64,000 nt of DNA from Geobacter sp. DSM 9736 (GCF_900187405.1 NZ_LT896716.1:2112001-2176000), one strand, 5' to 3'; counted from the stretch's first letter, positions 58,150-63,355 are shown. Program-made: numbers and translations. Notes: generated by a model not told the origin, from the sequence alone.

Positions 58150-58233
58150 GAGCCGGACTGCCGCCAGGCGGTTCTCCGGCAGCCTGTCCACCGAAAATTG
58201 CCCATTATCAATTATGCGAATGACGCAACCCTA

Positions 58234-58249
58234 TTTGCATTTCTGCAAA
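58234..58249. promoter_or_regulatory. Candidate enhancer site, perfect palindrome
   Basis: TTTGCA-TTTC-TGCAAA, perfect 6-bp arms, about 235 bp before the predicted sigma-54 start point. It is 106 bp (close to ten helical turns) from the second copy. Confidence 0.6.
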
Positions 58250-58339
58250 AACTGAAACTCCTTCCATCTTTCATCGTGAAACAGCTTGAAATTCTGCGGT
58301 AATTACTCGTCTGATGCGCCTAGTTTCCCCTCAAACATT

Positions 58340-58355
58340 TTTGCATTACTACAAA
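58340..58355. promoter_or_regulatory. Candidate enhancer site, one mismatch
   Basis: TTTGCA-TTAC-TACAAA, one mismatch from the palindrome, about 127 bp before the predicted start point, the usual range for a bacterial enhancer-binding protein. Confidence 0.6.
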
Positions 58356-58449
58356 ATCTCAAGGTGGATAATAATTAGAGCCGGGAACACCCATGTCGCA
58401 AGTACTTGAAAACTAGGGATTTTATTTGTTATACAGAATTTTAGAACAT

Positions 58450-58465
58450 TGGTACGCATGTTGCT
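58450..58465 (+). promoter_or_regulatory. Sigma-54 promoter of OFA transporter
   Basis: TGGTACG-CATG-TTGCT matches TGGCACG-N4-TTGCW with one mismatch and has the required 10 bases between the GG and GC pairs. It lies 49 bases before the start codon. Confidence 0.8.
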
Positions 58466-58513
58466 GAACAGGGAGTCATACCACGCATTCACTACATACG
58501 GAGGTGAGACGAC

Positions 58514-59815
58514 ATGTCAGAAACAATTAAGAACAGGGGATGGCAGGTAGCCATGGCCGGCCTCGGCATCAACCTGGCGCTCGGGGTGCTCTACGCATGG
58601 AGCATATTCAAGGGGGCTATCAAGACCTCTATTGAACAGGGGGGGCCTGACGCATTTCAGTGGAGTCTCTCCTCCATTAACGACCCTTACGCTCTCAGCT
58701 GCCTTATGTTTGCCTTTGCGATGATCCTCGCAGGGAAATGCCAGGACAAGATAGGTCCGGCCCGCACCGCGCTGATAGGCGGACTTCTCGTGGGAGCCGG
58801 CTTCACGCTTATGTCCCTCTCCAACAGCTACGCAGCCTGGGTAACCGGCTTCGGCGTTCTGGCAGGCGCTGGTTTCGGCTTCGGTTACGCTGCTGCTACG
58901 CCGCCGGCCCTTAAATGGTTCTCTTCCTCCAAGACCGGGGTGATCGCCGGCACCGTCGTCGCCGGGTTCGGGCTTGCACCTGTCTATATAGCCCCTCTCT
59001 CCAGCTGGCTTCTCGGGGTTTACGGCATTCAGAAATCGATGCTTTTCCTCGGCATCGGCTTCACCGCTCTGGTGTGCGGCCTTTCGTTTCTCCTCGTGAA
59101 CCCCCCCCAGGGATTCGTGCCGGCCGAGCCTGCAAAAAAAGATGACGCCCCCGCCAAGCCCAAGGCAGCCGTTTACAACGCAAACGTGAGCGAGATGATC
59201 CGCTCTCCGAAATTCTACATTCTCTGGCTGAATTTCTTCATCGGCGCCGGCGCCGGCCTCATGGTCATCGGCAGCGTCGCCGGACTGGCAAAGAAGAGCA
59301 TGGGACCCATGGCTTTTGTTGCCGTTGCGATCATGGCAGTAGGTAACGCCGGCGGGCGCGTCGTCGCCGGCATACTCTCCGACAAGATCGGCCGCAAAGC
59401 GACTCTGACCATCATGCTTGCATTCCAGGCACTCCTCATGTTCGCCGCCATTCCTGTGGTCGGTTCCGGAAGTGCAGTAGCCCTCGTACTCCTCGCCACC
59501 TTCATCGGCTTCAACTACGGCTCCAACCTTGCCCTCTTCCCCTCCTTCGCGAAGGATTACTGGGGCTTCAAGAACTACGGCCTCAACTACGGCACCCTCT
59601 TCACTGCCTGGGGCGTCGGCGGATTCGTCATGGGCCGGGTTTCCGAAATGCTCAACGCCCAGCCAGGCGGCCTGAACAAGTCCTTTATTCTCGCCGGCAC
59701 CCTGCTGGCAACCGGTACCGTTCTCACATTCTTCCTCCGTCAGCAGAAGCCGGTCGAAGTCAAGGCTCCGGTCGTCGTTGGCGAAGCTGTCCCGGTCATG
59801 GAAGAGAGCCGCTAG
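58514..59815 (+). CDS. OFA-family MFS transporter
   Basis: A 433-residue protein with 12 predicted helices. The N-terminal Gly-Ile-Asn-Leu-Ala-Leu-Gly-Val-Leu-Tyr-Ala-Trp-Ser (about 18-30) and Gly-Phe-Gly-Tyr-Ala-Ala-Ala-Thr-Pro (near 122) are typical of oxalate/formate antiporter relatives. Asp-Lys-Ile-Gly-Arg-Lys near 293 is the MFS loop motif. A charged linker rich in Lys/Ala/Pro splits the two halves, and the C-terminus is a soluble Val/Glu-rich tail. It probably carries a small carboxylate; which one is unknown. GGAGGTGA precedes the ATG. The gene is monocistronic, under a sigma-54 promoter. Confidence 0.9.
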   Translation: MSETIKNRGWQVAMAGLGINLALGVLYAWSIFKGAIKTSIEQGGPDAFQWSLSSINDPYALSCLMFAFAMILAGKCQDKIGPARTALIGGLLVGAGFTLMSLSNSYAAWVTGFGVLAGAGFGFGYAAATPPALKWFSSSKTGVIAGTVVAGFGLAPVYIAPLSSWLLGVYGIQKSMLFLGIGFTALVCGLSFLLVNPPQGFVPAEPAKKDDAPAKPKAAVYNANVSEMIRSPKFYILWLNFFIGAGAGLMVIGSVAGLAKKSMGPMAFVAVAIMAVGNAGGRVVAGILSDKIGRKATLTIMLAFQALLMFAAIPVVGSGSAVALVLLATFIGFNYGSNLALFPSFAKDYWGFKNYGLNYGTLFTAWGVGGFVMGRVSEMLNAQPGGLNKSFILAGTLLATGTVLTFFLRQQKPVEVKAPVVVGEAVPVMEESR

Positions 59816-59862
59816 ATCTATCCGCTCCACATGCCTTATTACAGGCAGAGCCAGCAGTAGAA

Positions 59863-59898
59863 AAATTAAGGGTCATGCTACCGCATGACCCTTAATTT
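59863..59898. terminator. Terminator after OFA transporter
   Basis: AAATTAAGGGTCATGC and GCATGACCCTTAATTT form a perfect 16-bp stem with a TACC loop. Confidence 0.92.
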
Positions 59899-59958
59899 AT
59901 TTGAAAAACGGCCAATTCTACGTATAATCCCGGCAATTCATGAGGTGAAGGAGCCAGA

Positions 59959-61104
59959 ATGGATACCACTTACATAAATACCCTCCTCGTTGTCTTTCTC
60001 GTAGTGGCAGCTCTGGCCATCGATGTGGGGTATCTGTACGTGAGCGAGGAAGATCTTCATAATGCCGCAGAGACAGCGGCGCTTACCGGCACCCAGGTAA
60101 TCAAGCAGCGGATTCAGGAACAGATCCACGCCGATCCCTCGAAAATCAGGAATGTTACAAACGATACCGTTCAGACCTCGGCGAGGACAGCGGCTATAGA
60201 CACCGTGTCGGGCAAGCACCGTGCAGTAGCTCTCATGGATATCGTCAACAACAACAGCAACCAGCTGACCACCTCAAACGATATCACCGTCGGCTTCTGG
60301 AATATCAGCACACACACCTACACCCCCGGCGCCTCGCCGGTCAACGCGATGCAGGTCCGGACCAGACGGACGGCCGAAAGCGATACCGTCGGCTTCGGCT
60401 CGGTTGGTGCCTTCATCGCCAGGATATCCGGAGTTGAGAAATTCCACTACACCCCCGAAGCGGTAGCCGCCTTCCCCCCGCGGGCAAATGCAAATTTTGC
60501 ACTCTGCATGGAGGCATGTGAAAGCTCCTGTACGTATCCCAATGTCTGCTCGATACCGGAAAGGAAGATGGTTCGAGATCCGTCGGACCAGCGAAAGGAG
60601 CAGTCGGCCGGAAACCTTTATGCGTATACCTCGCTCCTCTATCCGCCAACCGGCTCGACCAACCTCTCCGACCTCATCTGCATGGAGCTCCCTCCCCAGG
60701 AGGTATGCGGAAAGCAGATCTTCACGTCCGGAAGCGCAGACAACGGCTGGCTCCGGGACATGGAGTCGATGATGTACAACCCGAACGCTGACAAGTCGAA
60801 CAAGGAGATGGACGGCAACGGTGATGTCCGTGGCTGGTGGGTGATCGCACCTGTCACAAAATGTTCACAGGGGCGGCAGGAGGGGGCATTCGAAGGTCGG
60901 GCCGTCTCCGCGTATGCACTGGTCCGCATCAGCAAGATCTGTGCAAGCGGCGCTACGGGCTGCAAGCAGAATTATACGGCCTTCGACGGACCCGGTTCAT
61001 GCGGAAACGACAACAGCCTCTATATTGACCGGATCTCCTGCATCAGTTGCAGCAGCGAGAAGCTGCTCCAGTTCCCCGGCCTGCATCCGGTTGTAGTGAA
61101 ATAA
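59959..61104 (+). CDS. TadG-like membrane-anchored protein
   Basis: GAAGGAG precedes ATG 59959. The 381-residue protein has one N-terminal helix (about 8-25) followed by Asp-Val-Gly-Tyr-Leu-Tyr-Val and Leu-His-Asn-Ala-Ala-Glu-Thr-Ala-Ala-Leu-Thr-Gly (about 34-45), the pattern of the Flp-pilus TadG/TadE-like N-terminus. The remainder is a large exported domain with many Cys (about 14), unlike most TadG proteins. The cytoplasmic part before the helix is very short. No other tad genes are nearby, so it is an orphan. Role unknown. Confidence 0.78.
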   Translation: MDTTYINTLLVVFLVVAALAIDVGYLYVSEEDLHNAAETAALTGTQVIKQRIQEQIHADPSKIRNVTNDTVQTSARTAAIDTVSGKHRAVALMDIVNNNSNQLTTSNDITVGFWNISTHTYTPGASPVNAMQVRTRRTAESDTVGFGSVGAFIARISGVEKFHYTPEAVAAFPPRANANFALCMEACESSCTYPNVCSIPERKMVRDPSDQRKEQSAGNLYAYTSLLYPPTGSTNLSDLICMELPPQEVCGKQIFTSGSADNGWLRDMESMMYNPNADKSNKEMDGNGDVRGWWVIAPVTKCSQGRQEGAFEGRAVSAYALVRISKICASGATGCKQNYTAFDGPGSCGNDNSLYIDRISCISCSSEKLLQFPGLHPVVVK

Positions 61105-61128
61105 TCCCGCCCATTCCATCTACGGAAC

Positions 61129-61157
61129 AAAAAAAGGGCAGCCGTTTCAGGCTGCCC
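61129..61157 (-). terminator. Terminator after small Cys-rich gene
   Basis: GGGCAGCC and GGCTGCCC form an 8-bp stem; the minus strand then has seven T. It serves the leftward gene at 61218 and may also stop rightward transcription. Confidence 0.85.
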
Positions 61158-61217
61158 GTCATCACATGAAGGAGCGTAAAAATTTCTCTGGGACTCGAAT
61201 TCTCTTGTCCCGCCTGT

Positions 61218-61409
61218 TCAGCACCTCACCAGGTTTCCCTGCTCGGCAGGGAAGCGATCGGCCAACTCCTGGTACTTGAGGCATTCCTTATAGCGACAGC
61301 TACAGTACCTGATGATCAGATTCACGTCGTAAGGAGAGATATACCCGCATCCGACGTCGCAGTAGTCATCGCTCTTTCCGTAAAAGGGGCAGATCGTTTC
61401 GGCCGGCAT
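61218..61409 (-). CDS. Small Cys-rich cytosolic protein (63 aa)
   Basis: The 63-residue protein has seven Cys (Ile-Cys-Pro-Phe-Tyr near 7, Tyr-Cys-Asp-Val-Gly-Cys near 17-21, Tyr-Cys-Ser-Cys near 36-38, Glu-Cys-Leu-Lys-Tyr near 43, and the last residue). There is no signal peptide. The spacing suggests a small zinc or iron-sulfur site. The 5' side has a sigma-54 promoter and palindromic sites, and a terminator follows, so the gene is expressed on its own under regulated control. I know no named function. A hairpin AAACCC-GCAA-GGGTTT (61424-61437) lies in its leader. Confidence 0.78.
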   Translation of the reverse strand: MPAETICPFYGKSDDYCDVGCGYISPYDVNLIIRYCSCRYKECLKYQELADRFPAEQGNLVRC

Positions 61410-61539
61410 CGGAGCCTCGTATGTTAAACCCGCAAGGGTTTTCAGACGTGCACGGGGAAAGAAGCCATTCCGCTATCAGGTCGTCACCGGATTGCCAGAC
61501 TTCCGCCCATGCAACTAAAGGAGTAACTCAGGCTGTTAT

Positions 61540-61555
61540 AGCAACACCCATACCA
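61540..61555 (-). promoter_or_regulatory. Sigma-54 promoter of small Cys-rich gene
   Basis: On the minus strand TGGTATG-GGTG-TTGCT has the GG and GC pairs 10 bases apart and differs from the promoter at 58450 in only one of the twelve box positions. It is about 130 bases before the start codon. Confidence 0.75.
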
Positions 61556-61638
61556 CAATTCGCCTCCTCCGCCAGACACTGCAAATCGCCGTAATACTTA
61601 CTGTTTTACAACGATGACCTAATTGTAGGCCGAAATCC

Positions 61639-61654
61639 ATCGCATTGTTGCAAA
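61639..61654. promoter_or_regulatory. Candidate enhancer site, two mismatches
   Basis: ATCGCA-TTGT-TGCAAA: the right arm is perfect and the left has two changes. About 110 bp upstream of the predicted start point. Confidence 0.4.
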
Positions 61655-61784
61655 TGAACTGGAACCCGTACCGGCCGCACCGGCGATACTGCGGCATGTG
61701 ACTGCACCAGATTACCGTTGAAATTTTAGCCAGTTACTGCTCCAGAAGAGATTATTCGCACACATGCAACCATACATTCTCGTT

Positions 61785-61800
61785 TTTGCATGCATGCAAA
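61785..61800. promoter_or_regulatory. Candidate enhancer site, perfect palindrome
   Basis: TTTGCA-TGCA-TGCAAA, a fully symmetric 16-mer, about 260 bp upstream of the predicted start point of the Cys-rich gene. Confidence 0.6.
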
Positions 61801-62859: not shown

Positions 62860-63237
62860 TCATAAACCGAGCAGTGTCTCCCGCACCTTGTCGACCATCA
62901 GCTGATGCCCGAAAGGCTTGCGAATGTAGCCTTCGGAGCCCGACGCTATGGAAAGGCGACGCAGTTCCTGGTCAGGCTTGGAGGACAGAAGAAGAATCGG
63001 GATCTTTTTCGTCTGCCCATTATCCTTGAGCATCCTGGCTTTCTTGTCCCCATCAAGCGTGGGAAGCATGACATCCATTACAATCAGGTCAGGCGGGTTG
63101 TTACTGAAAATGGTAGAATCGGCCTCCTTGGCACTCAAGGCGGTGACGACCTCGAAGCCCCCCCCTTCCAAGGCTTCCCGTGCCATGGCAAGAACGATTT
63201 CGCTATCGTCCACTACCAGGATTCTCTTTTTATCCAT
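62860..63237 (-). CDS. Single-domain response regulator (CheY/PilH-like)
   Basis: A 125-residue receiver domain without output: Val-Asp-Asp near 9-11, phospho-Asp in Val-Met-Asp-Val-Met-Leu-Pro (about 55), and Lys in Tyr-Ile-Arg-Lys-Pro-Phe-Gly (about 107). GGAGGGGG lies upstream. It could be a CheY-like motility protein or part of another phosphorelay; no kinase adjoins. A TTTGTA-N4-TGCAAA palindrome lies about 105 bp upstream. Confidence 0.92.
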   Translation of the reverse strand: MDKKRILVVDDSEIVLAMAREALEGGGFEVVTALSAKEADSTIFSNNPPDLIVMDVMLPTLDGDKKARMLKDNGQTKKIPILLLSSKPDQELRRLSIASGSEGYIRKPFGHQLMVDKVRETLLGL

Positions 63238-63339: not shown

Positions 63340-63355
63340 TTTGTAAGGCTGCAAA
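63340..63355. promoter_or_regulatory. Palindrome related to the sigma-54-linked sites
   Basis: TTTGTA-AGGC-TGCAAA, one mismatch from the TTTGCA-N4-TGCAAA palindromes at 58234 and 61785. It is upstream of the response regulator at 62860. No sigma-54 promoter was found here. Confidence 0.35.

Follow-up and report, generated by a model that had tools for sequence, protein, structure and literature searches.

The window analysed here is a stretch of 64,000 nucleotides (G000:C1:2112001-2176000) from the one-contig genome of Geobacter sp. DSM 9736 (3,957,683 bp). Two of its genes, one encoding a transporter and the other, on the opposite strand, a small Cys-rich protein, are each preceded by a sigma-54 promoter and by a set of palindromic sites (Table 1). 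A pattern scan found two exact matches to TGGYAYGN4TTGCW in the window, and these are the boxes that the earlier note had placed there; by both the scan and reading of the sequence, each has GG at -24 and GC at -12 at the right spacing, and the two differ at a single box position, as had been described. The four palindromes reported upstream of these boxes are all present with the coordinates and mismatch counts given for them, and the distances quoted from them to the start points are about right. However, the sites number three per promoter rather than two, since those at 58205-58220 and 61755-61770 had been overlooked. Relative to the start codon of the Cys-rich gene the sites lie at -391, -361 and -245, and the sigma-54 promoter at -146. 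With up to two mismatches, TTTGCAN4TGCAAA occurs seven times in the window against 1.81 expected, a count that none of 100 shuffles reached.

Table 1. Features of the two window promoters and of the distant regulatory locus. Positions are counted from the first letter of the window unless a contig or locus is named.
Feature	Position	Strand	Remarks
Sigma-54 promoter (-24/-12) of the transporter gene, TGGTACGCATGTTGCT	58450-58465	+	Exact match to TGGYAYGN4TTGCW
Sigma-54 promoter of the Cys-rich gene, TGGTATGGGTGTTGCT	61540-61555	-	Exact match to TGGYAYGN4TTGCW
Distal weak operator site, TTATCAATTATGCGAA	58205-58220		2 mismatches to TTYGCAN4TGCRAA
Perfect operator palindrome, TTTGCATTTCTGCAAA	58234-58249		-280 from transporter start codon
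Operator palindrome, TTTGCATTACTACAAA	58340-58355		1 mismatch; -174 from transporter start codon
Operator site, ATCGCATTGTTGCAAA	61639-61654		2 mismatches to TTTGCAN4TGCAAA, 1 to the degenerate consensus
Weaker operator site, TTCGCACACATGCAAC	61755-61770		30 bp from next site
Perfect operator palindrome, TTTGCATGCATGCAAA	61785-61800		Promoter of the Cys-rich gene
SfMCT-type L-lactate/monocarboxylate MFS transporter, 433 aa	58514-59815	+	NCBIfam NF049980, PDB 6g9x
Cys-rich protein, 63 aa (Cys63)	61218-61409	-	Invariant cysteines C7, C17, C21, C36, C43
Histidine kinase, 663 aa	G000:C1:1722365-1724356	-	dCache_2, HAMP, HisKA and HATPase domains
NtrC-family response regulator, 461 aa	G000:C1:1720983-1722368	-	Receiver (PF00072), sigma-54 AAA+ (PF00158), Fis-type HTH (PF02954)
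Operon of Cys63, ~40-aa membrane peptide, 83-aa protein and 349-aa membrane protein	L012:4907-6695 (G000:C1:1718906-1720694)		Beside the regulator gene

The transporter, which the earlier note had taken for a carboxylate transporter, is better classed as an L-lactate/monocarboxylate transporter of the SfMCT type. It scores 400.5 bits over residues 10-397 against the NCBIfam model of the SfMCT L-lactate transporter (NF049980), for which the curated cut-off is 320, and its nearest solved structure is SfMCT of Syntrophobacter fumaroxidans (PDB 6g9x, E 3e-44; PMC6573034). The substrate-binding NxxxR motif of SfMCT (N276 and R280), with its carboxylate-binding arginine (PMC6573034), is aligned in TM8 as FSNAATR of SfMCT with VGNAGGR of the Geobacter protein, for which transport is predicted from this likeness. 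Unlike SfMCT, the Geobacterales gene often stands in an operon with proteins lacking an assigned function.

In the 3.96-Mb genome the perfect palindrome TTTGCA-N4-TGCAAA occurs five times and the reversed control pattern not at all. Two of the five copies are those of the window, and the other three (1720785, 1720947 and 1724420) flank a single pair of genes 0.45 Mb away, encoding a membrane-bound histidine kinase whose sensor is a double Cache domain (dCache_2) and an NtrC-family response regulator. The concern that such palindromes might be common throughout the genome without promoters is not borne out, as all five perfect copies are located upstream of the genes of the regulon or of its regulator, in four regions in total. 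Matches to the degenerate pattern with one mismatch are at background (28 against 30 for the reversed control), and this genome therefore supports four transcription units and no more, while lone weak matches are uninformative. One of these, TTTGTAAGGCTGCAAA at 63340-63355 of the window, precedes a CheY-like response regulator gene (62860-63237, minus strand) by about 100 bp; with its mismatch, no sigma-54 box and a class at background level, it is probably due to chance. Exact TGGYAYGN4TTGCW boxes number four in the genome, three of which (1720683, 2170450 and 2173540) lie just downstream of palindromes. The fourth, at 2649914, has no palindrome nearby and acts as a negative control, ruling out that the palindromes are a general trait of sigma-54 promoters.

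All three domains of the response regulator score above cut-off in a profile search, and the GAFTGA motif, responsible for contact with sigma-54, is present. Two of the three distant sites separate the regulator gene from a sigma-54 promoter, TGGTATGGTGGTTGCT, which drives the gene for a paralogue (79% identity) of the window Cys-rich protein. The third, a lone palindrome without a sigma-54 box, precedes the start codon of the kinase gene by 79 bp, which suggests autoregulation of the kinase by a route other than such a box; since the kinase promoters of several species have no site, this autoregulation is not general. Because the five perfect sites are divided between the window (two) and the surroundings of the kinase/regulator pair and of this third promoter with its paralogous gene (three), the pair is a strong candidate for the regulator.

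The best-scoring NCBIfam models for the regulator and the kinase are AtoC and AtoS of E. coli. Identity with AtoC was rejected, the regulator reaching 447 bits against a curated cut-off of 714 for the AtoC equivalog (NF008469), and the kinase scores 255 bits against the AtoS model, with a cut-off of 646. The AtoC site GCTATGCAGAAATTTGCACA is also built of two TGCA halves, but these are six bases apart rather than four, and AtoSC governs short-chain fatty acid metabolism through targets, atoDAEB, which differ from those found here (PMC3118216).

A search of 117 genomes from the same family and order gave 242 perfect sites, compared with seven for the reversed control. Upstream of 77 Cys-rich genes, exact TTYGCAN4TGCRAA sites occur at 1.82 per 450 bp compared with 0.0005 in dinucleotide shuffles, and the same regions yield the operator consensus TTYGCA-N4-TGCRAA, with neighbouring sites mostly 26-33 bp or 90-140 bp apart. 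Each of the 30 transporter orthologues examined shows a site at around -279 and a sigma-54 box at around -63 from the start codon, with further sites at around -309 and -175 in most of them. Sites are also present in 30 of the 31 Cys-rich promoters examined, the sole exception being cut by a contig end. In the alignment of the 30 transporter promoters, mean column conservation is 0.88 at 58205-58220, 0.88 at 58234-58249, 0.79 at 58340-58355 and 0.93 at the sigma-54 box, as opposed to 0.51-0.52 in the DNA between the sites. The promoters, whose conservation in relatives had been named as a point to be checked, are thus kept, as seen in promoter alignment, synteny and upstream-region counts. The idea that AT-rich palindromes merely happen to stand beside weak sigma-54 look-alikes, which would suit the background level of the one-mismatch matches, has a vanishingly small probability, being already refuted by the counts in this genome and in the 117, by the reversed-pattern control and by the shuffles; the conservation, moreover, is position-specific and falls mainly on sites and boxes.

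A kinase orthologue is encoded by 91 of the 117 genomes, which hold 233 of the 242 perfect sites, and the 26 kinase-negative genomes hold the other nine (Mann-Whitney p = 2e-12, a value that is indicative since the genomes are related). The check by co-occurrence for an NtrC-family regulator, suggested in the earlier note, hence indicates one candidate. This tracking of the kinase by the sites, the grouping of two or three sites ahead of a sigma-54 box, which is the layout of an enhancer-binding protein, and the many cases, among 84 loci in which synteny of the regulon was seen, where the sites lie between the regulator gene and the operon all make it improbable that some other regulator (a one-component repressor, a different enhancer-binding protein or a nucleoid protein) occupies the palindromes and that the two-component system is nearby by coincidence. 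Such a regulator would fit the single palindrome before the kinase gene, a site that lacks a sigma-54 box and might serve a repressor, and the persistence of transporter, operator sites and sigma-54 box in one genome (G001; L090, G001:C82:5675-9970) for which no orthologue of kinase, regulator or Cys-rich protein was found; binding of the palindromes by the adjacent response regulator is itself something that we infer. The order-wide sigma-54 regulon is genuine, and the identification of the two-component pair as its regulator rests on strong but indirect evidence.

Of 75 perfect sites listed with coordinates, 55 precede a transporter, Cys-rich or kinase gene by no more than 600 bp. The other 20 are elsewhere, some of them explained by an acetate transporter in Geomonas and some not; together with G001 these exceptions limit the regulon claim without changing it. 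In Geomonas, the gene for an acetate uptake transporter, AceTr_1 (L044:1501-2403; L046:1399-1620), is preceded by two copies of the operator palindrome, with a spacing of about 102 bp, and by a sigma-54-like box, which adds a member to the regulon in some species.

The Cys-rich protein, of which the earlier note could say little beyond its composition, is one copy of a protein whose gene normally heads a conserved operon; its five cysteines are invariant in 49 relatives. In most genomes Cys63 is followed by a membrane peptide of about 40 aa, an 83-aa protein (S83) and a 349-aa membrane protein (M349), and in many species the operon ends with the transporter gene. In Geobacter sp. DSM 9736 this gene order is preserved in the copy beside the regulator, and the Cys63 copy in the window is solitary. 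Kinase, regulator, Cys63, S83, M349 and transporter lie together in a single cluster in two genomes from a different family of the phylum, and in one of these the cluster also contains an operator site and a sigma-54 box; transfer and an ancestral arrangement are both possible origins. In these clusters (L231, G142:C13:248000-264000; L233, G314:C89) the 83-aa protein is extended N-terminally to about 133 aa. As the genes form a single operon or cluster elsewhere, the two window targets are probably one functional unit that has been split in this genome.

Relatives of S83 are 84-99% identical to the copy of this genome, and those of M349 mostly 78-88%, and neither protein matched a Pfam or NCBIfam family. 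The structures predicted by AlphaFold are of low confidence (pLDDT 60.5 for the Cys-rich protein and 50.3 for the 349-aa protein). Our working guess is that Cys63, S83 and M349 make up a membrane complex with an assisting or gating role in monocarboxylate uptake. A bolder proposal is that Cys63, the ~40-aa peptide, S83 and M349 form a new type of complex in the membrane and cooperate with the SLC16-like lactate transporter, for instance by regulating it, by a redox link to it or by energising it. In its favour, S83 and M349 keep an identity of about 80% or more through most of the order, belong to no family, apparently share a regulator with the transporter and are often encoded in its operon, but the proposal is speculative and on balance rather unlikely. 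This conserved operon without an explained function is the most interesting part of the regulon.

The promoters described above very probably belong to one small sigma-54 regulon that would be run by the kinase/regulator pair encoded elsewhere in the genome, and the palindromes are probably the docking sites of this previously unnamed two-component activator. The kinase would sense an external small carboxylate, the nature of the signal being suggested by homology, and would phosphorylate the NtrC-family regulator. Dimers of the regulator would then bind TTYGCA-N4-TGCRAA at a distal pair of sites separated by some three turns of DNA (in most promoters 26-33 bp) and at a further site about 90-140 bp nearer the gene. 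The bound regulator may assemble into an AAA+ oligomer which, by looping of the DNA, would open the sigma-54 RNA polymerase about 100 bp downstream of the nearest site; the role of the palindromes as strict enhancers, that is, binding together with activation at a distance, is predicted from their arrangement. The putative targets in this genome are the SfMCT-type transporter, the window Cys-rich protein and the operon of Cys63, ~40-aa peptide, 83-aa and 349-aa proteins beside the regulator, and the single palindrome before the kinase gene could mediate autoregulation.

The nearest solved relatives of the kinase sensor domain are the chemoreceptor Cache domains 2qhk, 4exo and 4k08, which bind pyruvate or acetate. 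Together with the score of the transporter above the SfMCT equivalog cut-off, its closest solved structure and the same sites before the acetate transporter of Geomonas, this favours a lactate- or acetate-type monocarboxylate as signal and substrate. Sites, promoters and regulator may nevertheless all be right and the ligand a different one, such as formate or oxalate, or else a metal or redox signal dealt with by the Cys-rich and membrane proteins, a substantial minority possibility given that oxalate/formate models also match the transporter, though below their cut-offs, that the operon partners match no known family, and that both kinase signal and transporter substrate are drawn from homology. 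A monocarboxylate of the lactate or acetate type remains the preferred reading.

Enhancers of NtrC, as at glnAp2, consist of a pair of dimer sites, spaced by about three helical turns and located upstream of a sigma-54 promoter. The present system resembles NtrC in the domain layout of the regulator and in its paired distal sites, and differs from it in operator, in sensor and in having no nitrogen genes among its targets. The closest parallel in layout is LurSR of Desulfovibrio vulgaris, also a two-component system with a sigma-54-dependent response regulator, which activates genes of lactate uptake and oxidation, a lactate permease among them (PMC6456213, PMC3333781). LurR (DVU3023) activates lactate genes from three sites at -389, -350 and -250 with a sigma-54 promoter at -136 (PMC6456213), a spacing close to that of the window Cys-rich gene. 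However, LurR sites are of the GTCCGCTTTTTCAGAC type (PMC6456213), unlike TTYGCAN4TGCRAA, and identity of the two operators was therefore rejected; the system was not filed as LurR because of this difference in operator, and it is the operator rather than a protein comparison that sets the two apart. Furthermore, LurR controls a lactate oxidation operon, and none was seen among the targets here.

The DVU0539 and DVU0946 regulators of D. vulgaris are sigma-54 response regulators as well and share one binding site, autoregulate, control operons of small membrane proteins and touch lactate genes (PMC3333781, PMC10102598). Their targets as given there, unlike those found here, include universal stress proteins and a PSE-family transporter, a comparison made by description and not by motif sequence (PMC3333781, PMC10102598). 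The system described here adds a new regulon to a known kind; it shares the layout of LurSR, has a different operator, and its DNA binding, signal and substrate are predicted.

A search of openly readable literature for this operator in Geobacter turned up no account of it, and one may have been published earlier. The nine genomes of one genus in the same family all have no kinase, and the best 80 named relatives of M349 include no record from G. sulfurreducens or G. metallireducens, which together may be the reason that the model species have yielded no description of the system. Metal reduction and bioelectrochemistry are fields in which the Geobacterales play a central part, and of their many sigma-54 activators few have assigned regulons. 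Here, comparative genomics alone ties one activator to an operator, to targets and to a likely class of signal, each step being testable, and brings to light a highly conserved membrane operon of no described family that is linked to monocarboxylate uptake. Operator-like sites, with no clear sigma-54 box, were also seen near a GSU0071-family or similar gene at three loci (L037:1470-2186, L026 and L035), and at L037 and L026 they form a pair 31 bp apart.
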